Positions 41,933-52,685 of a stretch of DNA of 64,000 nt are shown here, one piece after another. Where the stretch lies: positions 2,370-66,369 of the forward strand of contig DS999222.1 of assembly GCA_000156295.1 (NCBI GenBank), given 5' to 3'. The stretch is from a marine gamma proteobacterium HTCC2148 (GTDB taxonomy: Bacteria; Pseudomonadota; Gammaproteobacteria; Pseudomonadales; Halieaceae). The notes under the pieces are model-generated. The model had not been told where the DNA came from, did no database searches, and saw only the letters and a list, made by a program, of their open reading frames with translations. Positions within the stretch are counted from its first letter, which is position 1, and every line of letters begins with the position of its first letter. Both the position numbers and the translations under genes were made by a program.

Positions 41933-42799
41933 TCAGTTGAGCCCCGCCGAATTCAGGTAGGCCTCGGTGATGAGGTCCCCCCACAACAATGAAATCCATC
42001 CGGCGGCGGCCAGGTAAGGCCCGAACGGAATGGGTATTTCCTTGCCGCGATTTTTAAGGATCATCAGCCCTATGCCTACAACAGCCCCCACCAGAGATGA
42101 CAGTAAAATAATTAGCGGCAGTGCCTGCCATCCCATCCAGGCTCCCAGCGCGGCCAACAGCTTAAAGTCGCCATAACCCATGCCTTCCTTGCCGGTGATG
42201 AGTTTAAAAACCCAGTAAACGCTCCATAGAATCAGGTAGCCGGCCATCGCCCCGATCACCGCATCGCCCAGGGTCACGTAGGTGCCATTAAGGTTGAACA
42301 GAAGCCCCAGCCACAGCAATGGCAGGGTAATGTCATCTGGCAGCAGCTGGTGATCTACATCGATCATCGTCAGCGCAACCAGAGACCAGGTTAAAAACAT
42401 CGCGCCAAGTAGTGCCCAAGATGCCGGGAAATACCACGCGAGCGCCAACGTCAGTAGACCCGTAATAAGTTCCACCGTGGGATAACGCAGGGAGATTGAA
42501 ATGCTGCAGTTAGCGCATTTCCCTGCTAGGAGCAGATAGCTTAGCACCGGAATGTTCTGCCAAGCCTTGATCGGCGCCTTGCAATTGGGACAGTGCGAGT
42601 TGGGCACTGCCAGCGTCAGTGTCTGGTTTTGCTTTTCCCCCTCAAGGTCGAGCAATTCGCAGCAATCACTGCGCCACCGTGACTCCATCATGATGGGTAG
42701 GCGGTGAATAACTACATTGAGAAAACTGCCGACCACGAGCCCTAGAGAGAGTAAGGCAAGGTAAAGCAACCAGCTGTTCTGGTTGAGTGCGTCTAACAT
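41933..42799 (-). CDS. pilD: Type IV prepilin peptidase / N-methyltransferase PilD
   Basis: PilD cleaves prepilins after the conserved Gly and methylates the new N-terminus, in the inner membrane. It should process PilA from 46210. CPNC and CANC are the two cysteine pairs of the zinc site in the cytoplasmic domain, and GMGYGDFKLLAALGAW is the catalytic GxGD-type motif. It has 288 residues and about eight transmembrane segments. Confidence 0.97.
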   Translation of the reverse strand: MLDALNQNSWLLYLALLSLGLVVGSFLNVVIHRLPIMMESRWRSDCCELLDLEGEKQNQTLTLAVPNSHCPNCKAPIKAWQNIPVLSYLLLAGKCANCSISISLRYPTVELITGLLTLALAWYFPASWALLGAMFLTWSLVALTMIDVDHQLLPDDITLPLLWLGLLFNLNGTYVTLGDAVIGAMAGYLILWSVYWVFKLITGKEGMGYGDFKLLAALGAWMGWQALPLIILLSSLVGAVVGIGLMILKNRGKEIPIPFGPYLAAAGWISLLWGDLITEAYLNSAGLN

Positions 42800-42816
42800 G
42801 GAAGCTGTCCCGTCGC

Positions 42817-44037
42817 TTAGATTACAGATCCCAGCATAAATATTGGCAGGTACATTGCGATCAGCAGGCCACCCACCAATACGCCGAGAATGGACATGAT
42901 AAGGGGCTCAAGTAATGAACTAAGGTTGTCGACGGCATCGTCTACTGCTTGCTCATAGTGATCAGCGACCTTGCTAAGCATCTCGTCTAGTGCGCCAGAT
43001 TCCTCACCAATGGAGACCATTTGCATTAGCATATTAGGGAACAGCCCTGTGGCTTTGATGGAGTTATACAGCGTTGTTCCTGTGGTCACGTCGTCTTTGA
43101 TTTGTCTGATTCCTTTCTGGTACACAGAGTTACCAGCGGCTCCCGCGGTCGATTCCAGGGCATCCACCAGAGGTACACCGGCGGCGAAGGTCGTGGCCAG
43201 CGTACGGGAGAAGCGTGCGATTACTGCATCGTGCACAATGCCACCTACAATGGGTGTTTTAAGCCACATCTTATCTAAAAACTCCGAAAACTTGACTGAT
43301 CTAAATTTGGCTTCCCGGAGTGCGAAGCCTATGGCGGTCATGGCAATTAGCATGATGAACCACCACTCCTGAACCCATTCGGAAAGATGCATGACAAATA
43401 GGGTAAATGCCGGTAGGTCCGAACCGAAATTCTGGAAGGTGCTGGCAAAAACCGGGATTACTTTGATCAGCAAGATTAGCGTTACAACAACAGCGACGGC
43501 CATTACGGCGATTGGATAGGTCATCGCCTTTTTGATTTTAGCCTTGAGCGCTTCAGTTTTTTCCTTATACGTTGCAACGCGATCAAGCATCACTTCCAGT
43601 GTTCCAGACTCTTCCCCTGATGCGATCAAGCTGCAGAACAATTCGTCGAAATGCCTGGGATGTTTCGCTAATGAAGGGGCCAACCCAGTACCTGATGCAA
43701 CATCGTTCATGATCTCGACGATTAGCGTTTTCATGCGAGGCTTTTCTACACCGTCTGCAACGATCTCAAAGCTTTGCACCAGCGGTACACCGGCTTTCAT
43801 CATGGTGGCGAGTTGACGCGTAAATATAGCAATGTCTGCCGCTTTAATTGCTTTGCCCTGGCCTGAGCCAAAAAGAGGCTTCGGCTTCTTTTTAACGGAC
43901 TTGGGCTTGATGCCCTGGCGACGTAATTGAGCCTTGGCCATTGCGCTGCTGACCGCCGAAATCTCTCCTTTACTGCTGCGGCCGTTCTTATCGGTACCGC
44001 TCCAGGTAAAAACGTCACTTCCTGTTGCTGTTGCCAT
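42817..44037 (-). CDS. pilC: Type IV pilus inner-membrane platform protein PilC
   Basis: PilC is the membrane platform on which the PilB motor works. It has 406 residues with two T2SF (GspF) domains (about 75-200 and 280-400), each followed by membrane helices. FTRQLATMMKAGVPLVQ and FSRTLATTFAAGVPLVDALE are the two matching repeat signatures. It lies between pilB and pilD on the same strand. Confidence 0.97.
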   Translation of the reverse strand: MATATGSDVFTWSGTDKNGRSSKGEISAVSSAMAKAQLRRQGIKPKSVKKKPKPLFGSGQGKAIKAADIAIFTRQLATMMKAGVPLVQSFEIVADGVEKPRMKTLIVEIMNDVASGTGLAPSLAKHPRHFDELFCSLIASGEESGTLEVMLDRVATYKEKTEALKAKIKKAMTYPIAVMAVAVVVTLILLIKVIPVFASTFQNFGSDLPAFTLFVMHLSEWVQEWWFIMLIAMTAIGFALREAKFRSVKFSEFLDKMWLKTPIVGGIVHDAVIARFSRTLATTFAAGVPLVDALESTAGAAGNSVYQKGIRQIKDDVTTGTTLYNSIKATGLFPNMLMQMVSIGEESGALDEMLSKVADHYEQAVDDAVDNLSSLLEPLIMSILGVLVGGLLIAMYLPIFMLGSVI

Positions 44038-44075
44038 CGTGCTTACCGCCCCTTTCGTATTTCCATATTTCTTAT

Positions 44076-45791
44076 TCAGTCAACCGTTATGCGGTTGGCC
44101 TCTTCCAGTGTGGTCACTCCCTGTGCCACCTTTTCCAGCGCCGATCTGCGAAGAGTACTAAATCCTTCCTCGGTTGCGGCCTCCTGGATTTGCAGAGAAT
44201 TGCCTTCTTCCATAATTAGTGTGGCAATTTTCGGGGTTATCCTGACAACCTCGTAGATACCCACGCGGCCCTTGTAACCCTCGTTACAGGCATTGCAGCC
44301 TACTGCATGAGTTATGGTCGCGTCCGCTAATTGTTCTTCAGTGAATCCCTCGTTTAGCAGCGTTTCGTGAGGAATTTCAGCGGGTATCGCGCACTCTTTA
44401 CACAGCCGTCGCGCGAGGCGCTGAGCAATAATCAGGTCAACGGAAGTCGCCAGGTTGAAGGCGGGAACACCCATGTTGAGCATTCGAGTGACGGTTTCTG
44501 CAGCGCTATTGGTGTGTAGAGTCGATAACACAAGGTGGCCTGTTTGAGCAGCCTTGATCGCAATTTCCGCTGTTTCCAGATCTCGAATTTCACCGACCAT
44601 GATGATATCGGGGTCCTGGCGAAGGAATGAGCGCAGCGCCTCGGCGAAGTTAAGACCGACTTTGGCGTTTACATGAACCTGGTTTATTCCCGTCAGATTA
44701 ATTTCAACCGGGTCTTCCGCTGTTGAAATATTGCGTTCGGGCGTATTGAGAATATTAAGGCCTGTATAGAGTGACACAGTTTTACCGGAACCCGTGGGGC
44801 CGGTGACCAGAATCATGCCCTGGGGTTGGTCCAGTGCTTTGAGATACAGCTCTTTTTGATCCGGTTCATAGCCTAAGGCGTCAATGCCTAGTTGCGCGCT
44901 GGTCGGGTCCAGAATACGCAGTACGATTTTTTCCCCAAACAATGTTGGTAGCGTGTTCACACGAAAATCAATAGCTCGATTGCGAGATAGCTTCATCTGA
45001 ATGCGGCCATCCTGCGGCATTCGACGCTCGGAGATGTCCATTTGCGACATCACTTTAAGGCGAGCTGCCAGGCGACTGGAAAGATTGCGAGGAGGCTTTA
45101 CCATTTCTCGCAAGATGCCATCGGTACGAAAGCGGACTCGGTAATCGTTCTCATAGGGTTCGAAATGAATATCTGAGGCGCCTTGCTTAATTGCGTCAAT
45201 TAAGACTTTATTGACGAAGCGAACTATGGGGGTCTCGTCGACCGCATCGTTTCCCTCGTCAGCATCTGTGCCTCCAGCACTGGATACATCGATATTATCG
45301 AGGTCGTCTGCTTCCAGGTCACCAAGCCCATCACTCAGACTGTCCTGGGTTTCGACCCAGGCTTCGATCATCTTGGAGAGTGCTCTTTCCTCGAGCAAGA
45401 CCGCATCAGTGTTGATGCCCGTGTGAAATTTGATTTCATCCAAAGCGGCCAGGTTGGTGGGATCAGACACGGCGATGAATAGTCGGTTACCTCTGCGGTA
45501 AAGTGGAAGAGCATGATGCTTTAACACCAGGTCCACCTCTACGAGGTCAGCGGGCATGGTAGAACGATCAAAGCAGGTCGTATCGAGTTGCGGTACGCCA
45601 AACTCCTGGGCAGCAACTGCTGCGAGCTGCATACTGTCGACATTTTTCTTCTCGACGAGGTATGTCACCAGCGGTAGCTGCTCCATGGAAGCTTCGCGCT
45701 GAGCATTAGAGGCCTCGTCGGCAGAAATTAGCCCCTCGGCGACCAAGCGGCCTGCCAGGCCACTGAGTTGTCCGATTCCTTTGTCATTCAT
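44076..45791 (-). CDS. pilB: Type IV pilus assembly ATPase PilB
   Basis: The extension motor. An N-terminal MshEN domain is followed by the GspE-type ATPase with GPTGSGKTVSLY (Walker A), LRQDPDIIMVGEIRD (Walker B) and TGHLVLSTLHTNSA (His box). Four cysteines (CKEC and CNAC) form the zinc site. I choose ATG at 45791 (571 residues) because Pseudomonas PilB begins with the same MND and GGGGAT lies upstream; an in-frame GTG at 45824 would add 11 residues. Confidence 0.96.
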   Translation of the reverse strand: MNDKGIGQLSGLAGRLVAEGLISADEASNAQREASMEQLPLVTYLVEKKNVDSMQLAAVAAQEFGVPQLDTTCFDRSTMPADLVEVDLVLKHHALPLYRRGNRLFIAVSDPTNLAALDEIKFHTGINTDAVLLEERALSKMIEAWVETQDSLSDGLGDLEADDLDNIDVSSAGGTDADEGNDAVDETPIVRFVNKVLIDAIKQGASDIHFEPYENDYRVRFRTDGILREMVKPPRNLSSRLAARLKVMSQMDISERRMPQDGRIQMKLSRNRAIDFRVNTLPTLFGEKIVLRILDPTSAQLGIDALGYEPDQKELYLKALDQPQGMILVTGPTGSGKTVSLYTGLNILNTPERNISTAEDPVEINLTGINQVHVNAKVGLNFAEALRSFLRQDPDIIMVGEIRDLETAEIAIKAAQTGHLVLSTLHTNSAAETVTRMLNMGVPAFNLATSVDLIIAQRLARRLCKECAIPAEIPHETLLNEGFTEEQLADATITHAVGCNACNEGYKGRVGIYEVVRITPKIATLIMEEGNSLQIQEAATEEGFSTLRRSALEKVAQGVTTLEEANRITVD

Positions 45792-45972
45792 CTGTGCTAC
45801 ATCCCCAAACGAGGTAAAATACACGAGCTAGTTTACTTCAAGCAGGCTTCGCCAGTATAAACTTTGCCAGCGGACGCTCATAGCATTCTATGACTCTCAA
45901 AGTTAGAAAAGTCAACATTCTATGCAATTGCGCAGCTACGGGCTATTTTTGAGTGAACCAATCACGCCAGAT

Positions 45973-46209: not shown

Positions 46210-46722
46210 ATGAACATCCAAAAGACAACTCAAAAGGGTTTTACCCTTATAGAACTGATGATCGTGATTGCGATCGTTGGTATTTTGGCAGCCATCGCGC
46301 TGCCTGCTTATCAAGATTACATCGTGCGCTCAAAGATGTCTGAGCCGACGGCGGCATTAGCCGAGGCAAAAACGACGATTGCTGAATATTATGCGACAAA
46401 TGCCCAGTTGCCCGTTACCGCTGGTAAACAAGAAACGTCTTACGGCTTAAATACGGGGCCTCGAAATACAGACGTTCTCGACTATGTGTCAGTGAGGGAT
46501 GTACCGGGTTCAGGGGTTCTGGTCTACGCTGTCGTTAAAGCGGGCACATGGGGCGGGACCGTGGCCGAACGATATTCGTTTGCCCTTTCCGGTACTACGA
46601 ATGCAGATGGTAGTATGAAATGGACGTGTAAGCCTGGCGATGGCGCAGCGGAAAATTACGGAGCGACTGCAGACGAGGGTCCAGTGCCAACCAAGTATCT
46701 TCCTGCAAATTGTCGTGGATAG
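46210..46722 (+). CDS. pilA: Major type IV pilin PilA
   Basis: A type IVa prepilin with a 10-residue leader ending in KG, cut before [20 protein letters not shown]; the mature Glu5 is present. The mature chain is about 160 residues. Two cysteines (WTCKPGD and ANCRG) near the C-terminus would form the D-region disulfide. GGAGTAGGGAAAT is a strong ribosome site. The mature part shares [11 protein letters not shown] with the broken pilin at 52203. Glycosyltransferase genes follow directly, so this pilin is the likely glycosylation acceptor (inference). Confidence 0.96.
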
Positions 46723-46758
46723 ATTTCGGAACATGGCGTGAGTTCGACGCCGTACTAT

Positions 46759-46790
46759 AAAGCCCGGTTAGCCGGGCTTTATACGTTTTG
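46759..46790 (+). terminator. Probable terminator of pilA
   Basis: AAAGCCCGG (46759-46767) and CCGGGCTTT (46772-46780) form a perfect 9-bp stem with a TTAG loop; the T-rich tail is interrupted (ATACGTTTTG), so some read-through into the glycosyltransferase genes is likely. Confidence 0.7.
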
Positions 46791-46845
46791 ACTTTTCACA
46801 AAATTTCTCTTGCAGGGTGTTACGGGCGCTCTGTATAACTCTTGC

Positions 46846-48777
46846 ATGCTGTTTCAGACCAATCGTATTTTATTGCTCGCCGGTGTTTTTATTGCGCTCG
46901 CTTATTGGTCGGGACTGACTGGCCCTTTCTTTTTCGATGATTTACCGAATCTCACTGAAAACTATCGCCTCATCAATCTAGATTCTACCGAAGCCGATAG
47001 CTGGCGAACGGCCGCCTACAGTTCTACCGCTGGCATGTTTTATCGACCGCTTAGCATGATAACTTTCGCTGCGAATCTGGCTTTTTCTGGGGAGTTATCA
47101 CCATTTTCGCTGAAGGCAACGAATCTTGCTTGCCATCTACTGATAGCGTTTAGCGTTTATTATTTTTGTGGCTTGGTGCTTCGGAGTCCGGTGCTTGCAG
47201 GTAGTAAATTTTCTGAACTGGATCAAAAGTATATAGCCATTTTCGCAGCCGCCATCTGGGCTTTACACCCTCTTCATGTGTCGACTGTCCTTTACGCTGT
47301 TCAGAGAATGGCCCAACTCTCCACGTTAGCGGTATTGGCTGGGCTGATTGTCTTTTTAGTCTATCGCTTAAAGTGGGCAAAATCAGGGTGCACTGGGGGC
47401 GAACTCTTGGCGGCGGCGCTATGGACGATCATTATTTCGATCATGGCCGTTCTTTCCAAGGAAAATGGCGCGATATTGATCTGGCTGATTCCCGTGCTGG
47501 AATTAACCCTTTTCAGGGGGCTGTGGGCTGGTAAGACACACCGTGTGTTGGAAGTATCGACTTGGTTCATTTTTCTGACACCATTGCTGTTGATTATCGT
47601 TGCTTTGGCAATCGAGCCCTCTTTAATAGGGGCGAGGTTCGGCAACAGAGAGTTCACATTAGAGGAGCGCCTGCTTACTCAGTCGCGGATTCTTTGGCAA
47701 TATCTTGGGTGGTTAAGCTGGCCTGATATCCGTAACATGGGGTTCCACCATGATGACATCACTCTCTCTTTTAATTTACTGAACCCCATAACAACCTTAG
47801 GCAGTTTAATTGCCTGGTTCTGTGCGCTTGTTGCAGCCTGGCGTCTTCGCGATCGCTCCCCGTTGGTTATTTTTGGGCTTCTTTTCTACCTCGTATCTCA
47901 CAGTATTGAGTCAAGCTTTTTACCACTGGAAATGGTTTACGAGCATCGCAATTACCTACCCAGCGTAGGGTTAACGGTTGCGTTCTCGTGTATTTTTTGG
48001 ATGTGCGGTAAGCGATTAGCTCCAGAACGAGTGGGCTTTGTTGCAGTGTTAATGACACTTGGACTGTTCGCCCTCTGTGCCATGCGGTCGATGGTCTGGT
48101 CAGACTTTCAGTCACTGGCATACTTCAATGTCAAGAATCATCCGAATTCCCCCAGAGCCAATTTTTTGTACGGACAAATGTTGTATGCAGAGTCAATTGC
48201 CTTGCGCTCGGTAGCGTCGGAATCTGATCAGCGAAAAGCTGGCATAGTATCTGCGAGATCTCATTTTGAAAGAATGCATGAACTCTCTCCCAGGGACTTT
48301 GCTCCTCTTGTAATGCTTCATCAGATAGACGGGCAATTCTTTCCAGAATTACCTGACGGTGAACAATGGCTGTCAAAGTTGGTTGACTTGGCCGAGTCCC
48401 GCCGTTTGCAGGCCTCCGACAGGACGTTTGTTGATGTGCTGATTAAGTATTCCATTAGTGAATCTGGCTTGGCGCATATTCAAGAGGTAAATAGCATGCT
48501 CAACACTCTGCTGCTGCGCTACCCCAGCAACTCAGGCTTGGTTTTGATGCAATATGACTTATTGAGTGGCATGGGGGGGAGTTCAGAGGAGCGGCGTGAG
48601 GAGCTACTTTCGGGCTATTTACATCGATACACCGAGAGCATCGCGATTCAGATGGCGGCCGCTAGACATTTGCATAACTCAAATTTAGGCGAAGCGTACG
48701 TTCATTTAGGTAAAGGTCTGGCGCAGGATAGAAAGCGCAGATACCTGTCCTCACTCAAGCGAACCTTCGAGCAATGA
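46846..48777 (+). CDS. TMTC/PMT-like GT-C membrane glycosyltransferase with C-terminal helical repeats (1)
   Basis: About 643 residues. The first 410 or so contain about ten hydrophobic helices; the C-terminal third is soluble and TPR-like. The first outer loop carries FFFDDLPNL, the acidic pair expected of GT-C lipid-phosphosugar transferases, followed by RPLSMITFAANL, ALHPLHVSTVLYAVQRMA and EHRNYLPSVG, which parallel TMTC/protein O-mannosyltransferase relatives. It probably transfers a sugar from a polyprenyl phosphate to a protein, with PilA as the obvious candidate. No good ribosome site marks the start; ATG 46846 is a guess (alternatives TTG 46810, GTG 46819). Codon and base use is AT-richer than the flanking core genes. 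Confidence 0.7.
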   Translation: MLFQTNRILLLAGVFIALAYWSGLTGPFFFDDLPNLTENYRLINLDSTEADSWRTAAYSSTAGMFYRPLSMITFAANLAFSGELSPFSLKATNLACHLLIAFSVYYFCGLVLRSPVLAGSKFSELDQKYIAIFAAAIWALHPLHVSTVLYAVQRMAQLSTLAVLAGLIVFLVYRLKWAKSGCTGGELLAAALWTIIISIMAVLSKENGAILIWLIPVLELTLFRGLWAGKTHRVLEVSTWFIFLTPLLLIIVALAIEPSLIGARFGNREFTLEERLLTQSRILWQYLGWLSWPDIRNMGFHHDDITLSFNLLNPITTLGSLIAWFCALVAAWRLRDRSPLVIFGLLFYLVSHSIESSFLPLEMVYEHRNYLPSVGLTVAFSCIFWMCGKRLAPERVGFVAVLMTLGLFALCAMRSMVWSDFQSLAYFNVKNHPNSPRANFLYGQMLYAESIALRSVASESDQRKAGIVSARSHFERMHELSPRDFAPLVMLHQIDGQFFPELPDGEQWLSKLVDLAESRRLQASDRTFVDVLIKYSISESGLAHIQEVNSMLNTLLLRYPSNSGLVLMQYDLLSGMGGSSEERREELLSGYLHRYTESIAIQMAAARHLHNSNLGEAYVHLGKGLAQDRKRRYLSSLKRTFEQ

Positions 48778-50687
48778 TGAAAGAGCGGATCGGCCACAAG
48801 AGAGGAAATAATTTTTTGTCGGTGCTTCGGATTTTATTTTTTCTTGGTGTAATGGCTTTTACGGCCTGGGTTTACTTCCCAGGCATTCAAGGCCCAGTGC
48901 TGCTCGATGATCATTCCAGCGTCACCAAGATTGGAGATTTAACCGACAGTCCTGAGCTTGCAGTTGATTACATATTTGGAGATCGTTCGGGTGTCATGGG
49001 GCGTTCGCTCAGTATGGCCACTTTTGTTTTTGAACGCATGGTTTCTGACCGTGGGATGCCTCTCTCCAAGTCGGTAAACGTAGCTCTTCATTTATTTAAT
49101 GGTAGCTTGATTATTGCGCTATTGTGGCAGTTGTTTAGGTTTGCCGGCTTTTCTGGCTTTCATTGGCTGTCGCTGATCTTAGGCGCTCTCTGGCTGTTGC
49201 ACCCGCTTTTAATAAGTACGGTGCTGTATGCAGTCCAAAGGATGGCAATGCTTGCCACTACCTTTATGTTGCTCGGTTGCCTCAGTTACGTTTCATGGCG
49301 ATTAAAACTAATAGAAGGAAAGTTTTCCTGGTGGCGCCTCGGATTGCTGCCGGTGTTTTTGCTGCTCGGGCTTTTCTCTAAAGAAAATGCGATCCTGTTG
49401 ATTCCAGTCGTGCTTCTTCTCGAGGTTCTTTGGTTTCAGTTCGCCGGTCCTGACGGCAAAATCATCCCAGTTCTGCGTAATCTTTCGTGCTCTTTGATTG
49501 TCATCGGGCTTCTCGGTGCGGTGACAGCTGTTTTGCTCCGCTGGGAGTGGTGGCAGGCGAAATTTAGATGGCGACCATTTACTTTGGAGGAGCGGCTACT
49601 GACGGAAAGTCGGATTCTTTGGGATTACGTTGCACAGTGGTACATACCAGACGTGTCAACTATGGGCATATACCACGATGATATTTTGCTGTCTCGATCG
49701 TTCTTCGAACCAATCTCCACATTGTATTCTTCTGTTGCCTGGTTGTTGGTAGTCATTTTTTGTCTGGCGCTCTGGTTTACCCGCTTGGGCCGCTATCTCG
49801 CTTTTGCCATCCTTGTTTACCTCGTGGGGCACTCGATAGAATCGACAATTTGGCCGTTAGAACTTTATTTCGAGCATAGAAATTATTTTTCTTCTCTGGG
49901 CCTTTTGCTTATTCCGGGCGTGCTGATAGGTCTTGCGACTAAAAAAGAGCCAAAAGTTGGCCCTCCTCTAACAGTCGGCTTGGCTTTTTTTGCCATTATA
50001 CTTTGTATGCAAACCAGCTCACAGGTGACGATATGGTCTAGTCGGCCACTATTCGTACTTGCAAATGTTAGTGGGCATCCCAACTCACCCAGAGCCAACA
50101 TCGACATGGCTGTGCAATTAGCACGATTTGGAAATTCTAATACGGCGCACGAATATTCTAAGAGAGCGTTTGAGGCCTCGAGTATAGAGAGAAAAGGAGA
50201 GTACTTACTGAGGAACGTATCACTGAGCTGTATTGCAGGAGAAGCTGTTGATCGTCGTCAGGTCGATCAGATTGGCGCTTTAGGTGAATACCGCCCATTT
50301 GGTTCAGTCACAACACTGCTTGTTTTTGCAAGGTTGGTGCAAAATGGATCCTGCAAAATAGACGATGCCATGTATACCGCCGATCATTTAGAGCGCTTGT
50401 TCTTCGGCGACGATAGTAAGTACACGACGTCAGCGAAAAACTATTCCAATCTGGCGGTCTTGGAGAACGGGCTGGGTAGGTACGAAAATGCACTAATCTA
50501 TATCCAGAAGTACTTGGAGAAAATCCCCAATAACTCGCGTGGGTTGCTTATGGAACTGCATTTCGCGGTATCCCTAGAAAAGGAAGATATCGCCGAAAAG
50601 GCAATTCAGAAGCTGAACGAGCTAATGGATCAGGGTAAGCTGTCGGTTCAAGAGCAACAAACATTGGCAATGTATGTAAGGAGTTAA
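48774..50687 (+). CDS. TMTC/PMT-like GT-C membrane glycosyltransferase with C-terminal helical repeats (2)
   Basis: A paralogue of the preceding gene (637 residues), overlapping it by four bases. It repeats the same landmarks: LLDDHSSV in the first loop, RSLSMATFVFE, LLHPLLISTVLYAVQRMA, LEERLLTESRILW, HSIESTIWPLELYFEHRNY and HPNSPRANID at the start of the TPR-like region. The two proteins are clearly diverged copies, perhaps acting on different sugars or sites. The function stays inferred; an O-antigen-ligase type enzyme is less likely because the TMTC order of motifs is kept. Confidence 0.7.
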   Translation: MMKERIGHKRGNNFLSVLRILFFLGVMAFTAWVYFPGIQGPVLLDDHSSVTKIGDLTDSPELAVDYIFGDRSGVMGRSLSMATFVFERMVSDRGMPLSKSVNVALHLFNGSLIIALLWQLFRFAGFSGFHWLSLILGALWLLHPLLISTVLYAVQRMAMLATTFMLLGCLSYVSWRLKLIEGKFSWWRLGLLPVFLLLGLFSKENAILLIPVVLLLEVLWFQFAGPDGKIIPVLRNLSCSLIVIGLLGAVTAVLLRWEWWQAKFRWRPFTLEERLLTESRILWDYVAQWYIPDVSTMGIYHDDILLSRSFFEPISTLYSSVAWLLVVIFCLALWFTRLGRYLAFAILVYLVGHSIESTIWPLELYFEHRNYFSSLGLLLIPGVLIGLATKKEPKVGPPLTVGLAFFAIILCMQTSSQVTIWSSRPLFVLANVSGHPNSPRANIDMAVQLARFGNSNTAHEYSKRAFEASSIERKGEYLLRNVSLSCIAGEAVDRRQVDQIGALGEYRPFGSVTTLLVFARLVQNGSCKIDDAMYTADHLERLFFGDDSKYTTSAKNYSNLAVLENGLGRYENALIYIQKYLEKIPNNSRGLLMELHFAVSLEKEDIAEKAIQKLNELMDQGKLSVQEQQTLAMYVRS

Positions 50688-50689
50688 CT

Positions 50690-51556
50690 TTGGATTTTAG
50701 TATTATCCTGCCAGCTAAAGATGAGGAGCAGGGCCTAGCCGTTACCCTCCCATCTCTTAAAAAAAAATATCCACGCGCTGAGATTATCGTTGTTGATGAT
50801 GGATCCAGTGATGGAACTCTAGTTATCTGTGAGCAGCATGATGTAGTGGTGGTTAGTCATCCTTACAGTAAAGGCAATGGCGCGGCCATAAAATCCGGAG
50901 CACGAGCGGCTACCAAAGATTACCTCGTGTTTATGGACGCGGATGGACAACATGATCCTAGTGATGTAGAGAAGCTTGTATCCAAGTTGGAGGAGGGCTA
51001 CGACTTGGTGGTTGGGGCTCGAAGCGGGCGTCATTCTCAGGCCAGTTTCGCTCGCTGGAGTGCAAACAACTTCTACAACAAGTTAGCGAGTTGGATGGTT
51101 AACAGGAGGATCGATGATCTGACATCTGGTTTTCGTGCGGTTGATCGTAAAAAATTCCTAAGTTTCCTCTACCTATTACCGAACGGCTTTAGCTATCCTA
51201 CAACATCTACGATGGCGTTTTTTCGGGCAGGCTATTCGGTGGGTTTTGTTCCAATTGACGTTGCTCAACGTCTTGGAAAGAGCCATGTTAGTCTGTTACG
51301 AGACGGTGTCCGGTTTTTCTTGATCATCTTTAAAATAGGCACGCTATATTCCCCACTAAAGGTTTATTTTCCAACTGCTTTTTTTATGGCGGGGCTAGGA
51401 ATAGCAAATTATGTCGTGGCGAATTTGAGTGCTGGCACGCTCCGCTTCACGAATATGAGCACCTTGTTGATCCTTACTGGAATGATAATTTTTCTCATCG
51501 GTCTTCTGTCCGAACAAATAACCAACTTGCAATATAAGGACTCGAAAGACGAATAA
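50690..51556 (+). CDS. GT2 polyprenyl-phosphate sugar synthase (Dpm1/GtrB-like) with two C-terminal membrane helices
   Basis: A 288-residue GT-A enzyme: IILPAKDEEQGL and VVDDGSSDGT bind the nucleotide sugar, and MDADGQHDP has the DxD-type metal site. TSGFRAVDR is typical of dolichyl- or undecaprenyl-phosphate mannose/glucose synthases. Two C-terminal hydrophobic helices (about 225-275) anchor it to the membrane. The start is TTG at 50690 with a near-perfect AAGGAG six bases earlier. It lies two bases after the second GT-C gene and is the likely source of their lipid-linked donor. Confidence 0.85.
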   Translation: MDFSIILPAKDEEQGLAVTLPSLKKKYPRAEIIVVDDGSSDGTLVICEQHDVVVVSHPYSKGNGAAIKSGARAATKDYLVFMDADGQHDPSDVEKLVSKLEEGYDLVVGARSGRHSQASFARWSANNFYNKLASWMVNRRIDDLTSGFRAVDRKKFLSFLYLLPNGFSYPTTSTMAFFRAGYSVGFVPIDVAQRLGKSHVSLLRDGVRFFLIIFKIGTLYSPLKVYFPTAFFMAGLGIANYVVANLSAGTLRFTNMSTLLILTGMIIFLIGLLSEQITNLQYKDSKDE

Positions 51557-52202: not shown

Positions 52203-52685
52203 ATGTTTGCCAGCAATGACGCCAAAGATAAACTAAGAGATTCATCCCCCTAGTCCGGCTTCACCCTGATAGAGCTCATGGCCGTGGTTGCAATTGTCAG
52301 CATTCTCGCTGTCATAGCGCTTCCTGCCTATCTCGATTACGTTACACGTTCAAAAGTTAGCGAAGGCTTGGTGTTTGTCTCTGAGGCAAAAACAACTATC
52401 GCTGAGTATTACCACACGAATAGGGAGTTCCCACTAGACAATGAGACGGCGGGTCTCACGCAGGCATCAAGCTATGGCCGCTATGACTTTATAAGAGGTC
52501 TGAGTGTTGGGCCTGGTGACGGTATCATTACAGTCACATTCAAGCTGCAGGGAACCCAAGGCGATGATAAAGATTTGCAGCTAATTGCGGATACCTCCGG
52601 AGTGGAGGTTGTATGGGAGTGCAAAGCACCTGACACGCCAAGAGGGATAGGCAGTAATTTCGTGCCGCCCAGTTGTCGTGGATGA
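52203..52685 (+). pseudogene. Second type IV pilin gene with an amber codon at the prepilin cleavage site
   Basis: From ATG 52203, preceded by GGAGGACTGATCG, the frame reads MFASNDAKDKLRDSSP, TAG at 52251-52253, then [15 protein letters not shown] and a full pilin body to 52685. One change (CAG to TAG) would explain the loss. The remainder is intact: [12 protein letters not shown] matches the [12 protein letters not shown] of PilA, and two cysteines near the end (VWECKAP and PPSCRG) form the D-region pair. The shorter frame from ATG 52278 lacks the leader and cleavage site. It starts four bases after the degraded HAMP gene. Confidence 0.85.

Follow-up and report, generated by a model that had tools for sequence, protein, structure and literature searches.

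What do two membrane proteins resembling glycosyltransferases do when they are encoded directly after a type IV major pilin gene, and on which molecule do they act? The question is raised by a 64,000-nucleotide stretch (the window) of contig DS999222.1 from the marine gamma proteobacterium HTCC2148 (Halieaceae), in which pilA is followed by a cassette of two paralogous GT-C-like genes, GTC1 and GTC2, and a GT2 glycosyltransferase gene. This layout had been given in a preliminary description of the locus and is confirmed by the coordinates of the open reading frames (ORFs): GTC1 and GTC2 overlap by 4 nt, and two bases separate the GTC2 stop from the GT2 start. As far as homology and gene order can tell, the cassette very probably encodes a TfpW-like system for pilin glycosylation that includes a donor-making gene of its own. 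The arrangement is not a product of chance, since dozens of further loci have their genes in the same order.

Distribution and linkage to pilin genes

Relatives of the GTC proteins are widespread. A search with GTC1 found matches in 51 of 97 genomes, its own included, comprising 37 of 60 from the window's taxonomic family and 13 of 36 from elsewhere in the order. A profile built from a 31-row alignment of GTC relatives (A1) detected matches in 72 of 390 genomes of an order sample (E<=1e-10), in 112 of 369 of a class sample (E<=1e-12; ~30%, with a best E of <=1e-60 in 103 and weaker values in 9) and in 23 of 299 of a phylum sample (E<=1e-60), 13 of these outside the class. A single-sequence scan of contigs added one deltaproteobacterial locus (L032), and a scan of viral contigs found no GTC relative.

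Gene neighbourhoods were read at 119 loci of the GTC family, including most of the remaining order-sample matches (L134-L171). Loci rather than genomes were counted (G061 and G058 contribute two each); the second contig of G314 (L160) and L133, which lies on the same contig as L171, were left uncounted, and L171 was also dropped from the linkage tallies. The denominator for pilin consists of loci with >=600 bases sequenced upstream, and that for GT2 of loci with >=1 kb downstream; GT2 was scored after a six-frame recheck, the greedy ORF caller having missed it at several loci. At 97/106 loci a pilin gene lay on the same strand no more than 1.5 kb upstream, at a median of 63 bp from the GT-C open frame; a GT2 gene lay within 3.5 kb downstream at 94/105, and 80/93 had both. 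Within the window's taxonomic family the figures were 36/36, 36/36 and 34/34. Conservation of the pilA link in relatives had been set as a test in the preliminary description, and the link held.

Eleven loci with only distant GT-C matches (L170 being a fragment) served as a control. A pilin gene lay upstream at the three TfpW-type loci and not at the other eight, so the pilin link is not a trait of every such gene. Distant genes of the GT-C plus TPR type without a pilin neighbour were also seen at L125, L128, L130, L131 and L132, some of them beside weakly GT2-like genes. In the class sample the 29 best loci (L213-L241) were read, with flanks of ~1.4 kb, and the pilin share found there may for that reason not hold for weaker matches. 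In the phylum sample a pilin gene was upstream at 11 of the 14 loci read; of the 12 loci from outside the class, 10 had one.

The cassette is not a fixed companion of type IV pili. GTC genes are absent from 23 of the 60 relatives in the taxonomic family; among these 23, a PilB orthologue (>=700 bits) was found in 11, none was clear in 11 and one had a fragment at a contig end, several of the genomes without a clear PilB being incomplete assemblies. Type IV pilus genes therefore occur without the cassette, as PilB and pilin are present in cassette-less relatives. At six of the 11 PilB-positive loci (L203, L205, L207, L209, L211 and L212) the pilin gene, of which L205 has two, is followed directly by glcB; L202, L204, L206 and L208 are arranged differently, and the sequence of L210 ends too early. 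PilB at the same threshold was found in six of seven cassette-bearing genomes checked. On a tree of PilB, cassette presence requires five changes, four of them forced by starred branches.

Homology of the membrane proteins and the donor module

The preliminary description held that the cassette does not match the pilin-glycosylating enzymes TfpO/PilO, TfpW or PglL. With respect to TfpO and PglL this stands, as neither Pfam nor NCBIfam gave a Wzy_C or PglL-type match for GTC1 or GTC2. With respect to TfpW it does not. TfpW, which has been studied in P. paraeruginosa, is described as a pilin glycosyltransferase (PMC11841053, PMC12369383). It modifies the pilin encoded beside it, adding D-arabinofuranose (D-Araf) homopolymers (PMC11841053). 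The pilA region of strain PA7 contains pilB, pilA, a 641-residue ORF and a 245-residue ORF, in keeping with the published order pilA-tfpW-tfpX (PMC12369383) and a PA7 TfpX of 244 residues (PMC11841053).

The A1 profile reached the 641-residue ORF, TfpW, at E 6.6e-17, and hhalign aligned PA7 TfpW with A1 at 98.8% (range over comparisons 98.8-100%). Alignment of 156 rows of the GTC family with three TfpW-type proteins gave 99.7% over 552 columns (E 1e-26), against 0.9-54% for one reversed and five block-shuffled controls. BLASTP of PA7 TfpW against GTC1 and GTC2 gave no match at E<=10; a TfpW-like protein from another family of the order (L126) matched GTC2 at E 0.009. The statement that TfpW does not match is thus wrong at the profile level, where both profile search and hhalign find remote homology. 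In the tree the three TfpW-type rows separate as a starred group of their own, leaving the window's family outside the TfpW subfamily. Judged from these alignments, the window cassette is a TfpW-like kind of system with a different donor module, on a separate branch. Earlier work on TfpW is reported to deal with TPR motifs of the protein and with Thr64/Thr66. TfpX-like ORFs (49-66 bits to PA7 TfpX) were noted in or near the window-type cassettes at L071, L145 and L168.

Taken alone, GTC1 gave nothing above chance in Pfam and no match in NCBIfam or the PDB, and GTC2 gave weak Pfam TPR matches in its tail, below the cut-off. The A1 alignment has 21 invariant columns, the start Met counted, and TPR proteins head the list when its profile is searched against the PDB, through the C-terminal part; the TPR-like tail proposed earlier is borne out by these matches. 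Across the 31 rows, Pfam found TPR models in a few, PMT in one (weak, E 0.0081) and DUF5935 in one (weak, E 0.0014). A Pfam scan of the window proteins found no match to DUF1736. The single weak PDB match of a membrane-only profile (A2), to a tetraspanin (E 0.058), was judged to be chance.

The motifs listed in the preliminary description were all located: a DD pair past the first hydrophobic segment (D31/D32 in GTC1, D45/D46 in GTC2), YRPLS in GTC1 and GRSLS in GTC2, and YAVQRMA and EHRNY in both. Human TMTC proteins have been deduced to possess 11 transmembrane segments, and motifs within them have been assigned to binding of dolichyl-phosphate-mannose and metal (PMC7801869). By comparison of motif positions with that paper, rather than by sequence alignment, the arginine of RP corresponds to R67 in GTC1 and R77 in GTC2, that of RxD to R154 and R156, the KE past segment 5 to K205/E206 and K203/E204, the aspartate in EL4, between segments 7 and 8, to D303 and D302, and the EL5 arginine ahead of segment 10 to R368 and R369. 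The M1 DD, M2 R, M4 KE and M7 R are present in 93-100% of 153 family rows, and four published TMTC ligand motifs are retained in part. Among the 33 GTC1 and 33 GTC2 rows of the taxonomic family, the motif residues are invariant or nearly so, the second D of DD in GTC1 excepted.

Similarity to ArnT was sought with a set of 29 ORFs plus E. coli ArnT. Against a distant set of 15 rows, which includes the TfpW-type proteins and L032, hhalign gave 96.1% over 126 columns (E 3e-9; controls <=15.5%), and against the window GTC family 52.9% over 128 columns (controls <=7.2%). ArnT was not found by phmmer or by profile search of the PDB. Similarity to TMTC- and ArnT-like GT-C enzymes is upheld at the level of profiles (hhalign) and motifs (PMC7801869). 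A GT-C fold is predicted on the strength of these motifs and of profile homology that runs through distant relatives, not from a structural model.

The assignment of GT2 as Dpm1/GtrB-like fares well, with agreement between Pfam (Glycos_transf_2, 1.7e-33), NCBIfam (AglJ, 3e-37, yet below the cut-off of that model) and the solved structures of GtrB (sll0501), ArnC and dolichol-phosphate mannose synthase; its C-terminal segments are hydrophobic. The sugar cannot be named from these matches because the protein falls below the cut-off of every NCBIfam model shown. Within the cassette, the part of the genome examined for a D-arabinofuranose route, this gene is present and UbiA, FAD-binding and short-chain dehydrogenase genes are not.

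Other loci carry other donor genes. At L126 a single run (L126:6673-13267) contains pilA, a TfpW-like GT-C gene, UbiA, LPG-synthase-TM, FAD-binding and short-chain dehydrogenase genes. The genes from UbiA onwards fit the D-arabinose-lipid route of TfpW, and this pilin cassette may encode its own arabinose-lipid pathway. Both types occur within the genus of PA7, where five of 25 genomes matched, G442 and G451 with the TfpW type and G435, G450 and G225 (cut at the contig start) with the window type. In G435 (L122:8038-12775) and G450 (L123:4556-9740) a window-type GT-C gene and GT2 lie after a pilin gene and are followed by a gene of the UDP-GlcNAc-2-epimerase family and by one further gene, weakly deacetylase-like at L123 (below the Pfam cut-off) and without a Pfam match at L122. 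At ten loci chosen outside the window's taxonomic family, 20 further downstream proteins were scanned and 17 had matches, among them glycosyltransferases, DUF354, MBOAT, nucleotidyltransferase and dehydratase models, as well as methyltransferase, radical-SAM, asparagine-synthase-like and ABC-transporter models. The varied sugar-related neighbours therefore support a role in glycan synthesis with variable sugars.

Proposed acceptor and mechanism, and alternative readings

Linkage and the analogy with TfpW make PilA the best candidate for the acceptor, and this proposal is better supported than before. In the mechanism suggested by family membership, GT2 would work at the inner face of the cytoplasmic membrane, loading polyprenyl phosphate with a single sugar taken from a nucleotide. 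The lipid-linked sugar would then be flipped, a step that may fall to one of two GtrA-family proteins whose genes lie on other contigs of the same genome. GTC1 and GTC2, predicted from homology and linkage to present both the DD loop and the TPR-like tail to the periplasm, would pass the sugar to Ser or Thr of PilA, which would be modified while still held in the membrane, ahead of pilus assembly. The two enzymes may divide the work by acting at different sites, by adding a first and a second sugar, or as a Pmt1/Pmt2-like pair.

A possible acceptor site is suggested by Ser117 and Thr120 of mature PilA (LSGTT), positions at which both residues are Ser/Thr in 26 of 36 pilins with the cassette vs one of 10 without it (the second pilin of L205 having been dropped). 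The comparison amounts to four independent contrasts on the starred branches of the PilB tree (five on all branches) and is not significant, so that the two residues are a lead only.

A number of observations weigh against a pilin-glycosylation system with its own donor gene. No pilin gene was found upstream at nine of the 106 loci (L072, L137, L146, L151, L163, L168, L225, L235 and L236), no GT2 at 11 of the 105 (L071, L072, L082, L136, L146, L157, L163, L164, L166, L225 and L237), and no strong GT2 within the ~1.4 kb covered at the 14 phylum-sample loci. The seventh cassette-bearing genome checked, the fragmented G029, has no clear PilB. The cassette contains no GtrA-family flippase gene, and no sugar-nucleotide gene lies in the interval from GT2 to the second pilin-like ORF and glcB; to call the module self-contained, as was done previously, was too strong. 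The notion that pilins of cassette-bearing species are richer in Ser and Thr was rejected, with no difference in content between 36 cassette-bearing and 11 cassette-less pilins (P 0.6). Compared with TMTC, the M3 aspartate of RxD is absent (QRM(A) in the window family), as are M2 SHKS, the M4 T/Q (N follows KE here) and the M5 W. Similarity of the window GTC family to ArnT is weak (52.9% for the large set, 18.3% with A2, 8.0% with A1 and 3.1% for E. coli ArnT alone), and AlphaFold2 prediction of GTC2 from three rows produced no usable model (pLDDT 47, pTM 0.28).

Several alternatives deserve consideration. GTC1 and GTC2 could transfer or polymerise an oligosaccharide for which GT2 makes one donor only, comparable with the arabinose homopolymers added by TfpW (PMC11841053). 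Outside the taxonomic family several cassettes are indeed followed by glycosyltransferase, epimerase, methyltransferase, MBOAT and asparagine-synthase-like genes; the window itself has no further sugar gene as far as the second pilin-like ORF and glcB, and GT2 resembles makers of single-sugar polyprenyl phosphates, leaving this reading somewhat unlikely.

It is unlikely that one paralogue (GTC2, or GTC1) is alone catalytic and the other a non-catalytic partner. Cassettes with one GTC exist elsewhere, and the second Asp of the DD pair is retained in 27 of 33 GTC1 rows of the taxonomic family vs 33 of 33 GTC2 rows, being missing in six of the former and none of the latter. Against this, the first Asp, the Lys, the Y286-type Tyr and the EL5 Arg are kept in 33/33 rows of GTC1, as of GTC2, and first-position copies cluster together in the tree.

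GTC1 and GTC2 share 34% identity over 479 residues. A FastTree analysis of 171 rows places the 34 first-position copies from the taxonomic family on one side of a single low-support branch, and a starred set of 35 rows consists of these 34 and one other. Second-position copies require four changes; 22 of the 34 share a starred set with two single copies. The simplest reading is an old duplication after which neither line was lost. In the rest of the order there are 46 single copies vs four tandem pairs (rows of >=500 residues), and a second copy occurs at five of the 29 class loci. Two further arrangements were noted: three short GT-C pieces 3' of a full-length copy at L229:3-1378 (-), possibly a decaying paralogue, and a third GT-C copy at L061:732-2504 (+), away from pilA and pointing towards the pilA-linked pair of that stretch.

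That the cassette glycosylates some other envelope target (minor pilins, tip or exported proteins, or lipid), its position beside pilA reflecting co-regulation, is very unlikely: the remote profile relative ArnT acts on lipid IVA according to its annotation and pilin Ser/Thr content gives no signal, but the neighbour is a pilin gene at 97/106 loci, PilB shares the locus with the cassette in 36 of 38 cases from the taxonomic family (the other two loci end near a contig edge), 11 of 23 cassette-less relatives (several of them incomplete assemblies) have no clear PilB, and the homologue TfpW acts on the adjacently encoded pilin (PMC11841053).

Beyond glycosylation of pilin by this one cassette, a wider proposal may be advanced tentatively, as a possibility that falls short of probable. 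The pilA-GTC-GT2 arrangement would be a common, little-described and modular system of type IV pilin glycosylation, found in the class and outside it and perhaps exchanged horizontally, in which a TMTC-like GT-C enzyme with a TPR substrate arm is combined with interchangeable donor modules (GT2; GT2 plus epimerase; UbiA/FAD/SDR, the last being the short-chain dehydrogenase). The window's family would have evolved to depend on two enzymes together, as a bacterial equivalent of PMT or TMTC pairs, and O-mannosylation by animal TMTCs and arabinosylation by TfpW would represent two branches of a single superfamily of TPR-bearing GT-C enzymes that recognise folded acceptors. No description of the pilA-GT-C-GT2 cassette was found among the papers listed in searches of an open-licence library. 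If the pilin-glycosylation reading is correct, TfpW would be an outlier of a large pilin-linked enzyme family, with a profile detected in ~30% of sampled class genomes; a bacterial system in which genes can be removed would be at hand for the study of acceptor choice by GT-C plus TPR enzymes, human TMTCs included; and the reason why one family retains two paralogues would become testable. Pilin sugars have been reported to confer resistance of the pilus to certain phages (PMC11841053, PMC12369383).

Layout of the locus and comparison with known systems

The features of the region are collected in Table 1. The start of GTC1 was taken as the ATG at 46846, the listed ORF beginning at TTG 46810. 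RNA folding of 46722-46800, in the gap between pilA and GTC1, gave a z of -5.0 vs shuffles. The stem in this gap is the longest of six terminator-like sites in the region, where 7.8 were expected, so that such sites are not enriched. A terminator after the pilin gene is a frequent trait of pilin-accessory cassettes (PMC11841053), and the stem might lower expression of the cassette. In the second pilin-like ORF an in-frame TAG stands immediately 5' of the SGFTLIEL processing motif; this gene is probably broken, as the TAG severs its leader. A relative (L033) has a 168-residue pilin at the same position. Two genes of 379 and 159 residues that are common downstream in the taxonomic family, identified by eye as alanine dehydrogenase and an Lrp-type regulator, were considered as parts of the system and rejected.

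Table 1. Features of the pilA region, in positions of the window
Feature	Position	Strand	Basis
pilB, pilC, pilD (three ORFs, named by eye)	41933-45824	divergent from pilA	ORF translations
pilA, type IV major pilin, 170 aa, proposed acceptor	46210-46722	+	Pfam Pilin 2e-12, N_methyl 3e-10
Terminator-like stem, 12 pairs, T-containing tail, pilA/GTC1 gap	46756-46783	+	stem scan and RNA fold
GTC1, GT-C-like membrane glycosyltransferase, TPR-like tail, 643 aa, 11 hydrophobic segments	46846-48777	+	family profile, motifs
GTC2, GTC1 paralogue, GT-C-like, TPR-like tail, 637 aa, 11 hydrophobic segments	48774-50687	+	family profile, motifs
GT2, Dpm1/GtrB/AglJ-like polyprenyl-phosphate sugar synthase, 288 aa, TTG start	50690-51556	+	Pfam, NCBIfam, solved members
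Second pilin-like ORF, between cassette and glcB	52278-52685	+	Pfam
glcB (malate synthase G), past the second pilin-like ORF		opposite to cassette	named by eye

Among known systems, Dpm1, GtrB (sll0501) and AglJ share with GT2 the GT2 domain and the hydrophobic C-terminal segments, whereas GT2 scores below the curated threshold for all 25 NCBIfam models shown. ArnT, which together with ArnC and ArnD brings aminoarabinose to lipid A, combines a GT2 polyprenyl-phosphate-sugar synthase with a GT-C enzyme in the same logic; a different acceptor is expected for the window cassette. TfpO/PilO and PglL/PglO would have the role of pilin O-glycosylation in common with the cassette, as proposed here, and the gene for TfpO also sits in a pilin cassette (PMC11841053). 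The animal O-mannosyltransferases TMTC1-4, likewise GT-C enzymes with TPRs, resemble GTC1 and GTC2 in the 11 hydrophobic segments, the TPR-like tail and the placing in equivalent loops of DD, the R of RP, the R of RxD, KE, the EL4 Asp and the EL5 Arg (PMC7801869).

TfpW, the group IV pilin arabinosyltransferase of P. paraeruginosa PA7/Pa5196, is a homologous GT-C-like protein of ~640 residues with a first-loop DD, encoded directly 3' of pilA and divergently from pilB, and it has the same residues at both aspartates and at R67, P142, R154, K205, E206, Y286 and R368. Q153, M155, E355, E366, H367 and Y370, on the other hand, are absent from all three TfpW-type rows, and tfpW is followed by tfpX without a GT2 gene, whereas the window has two paralogues and GT2.

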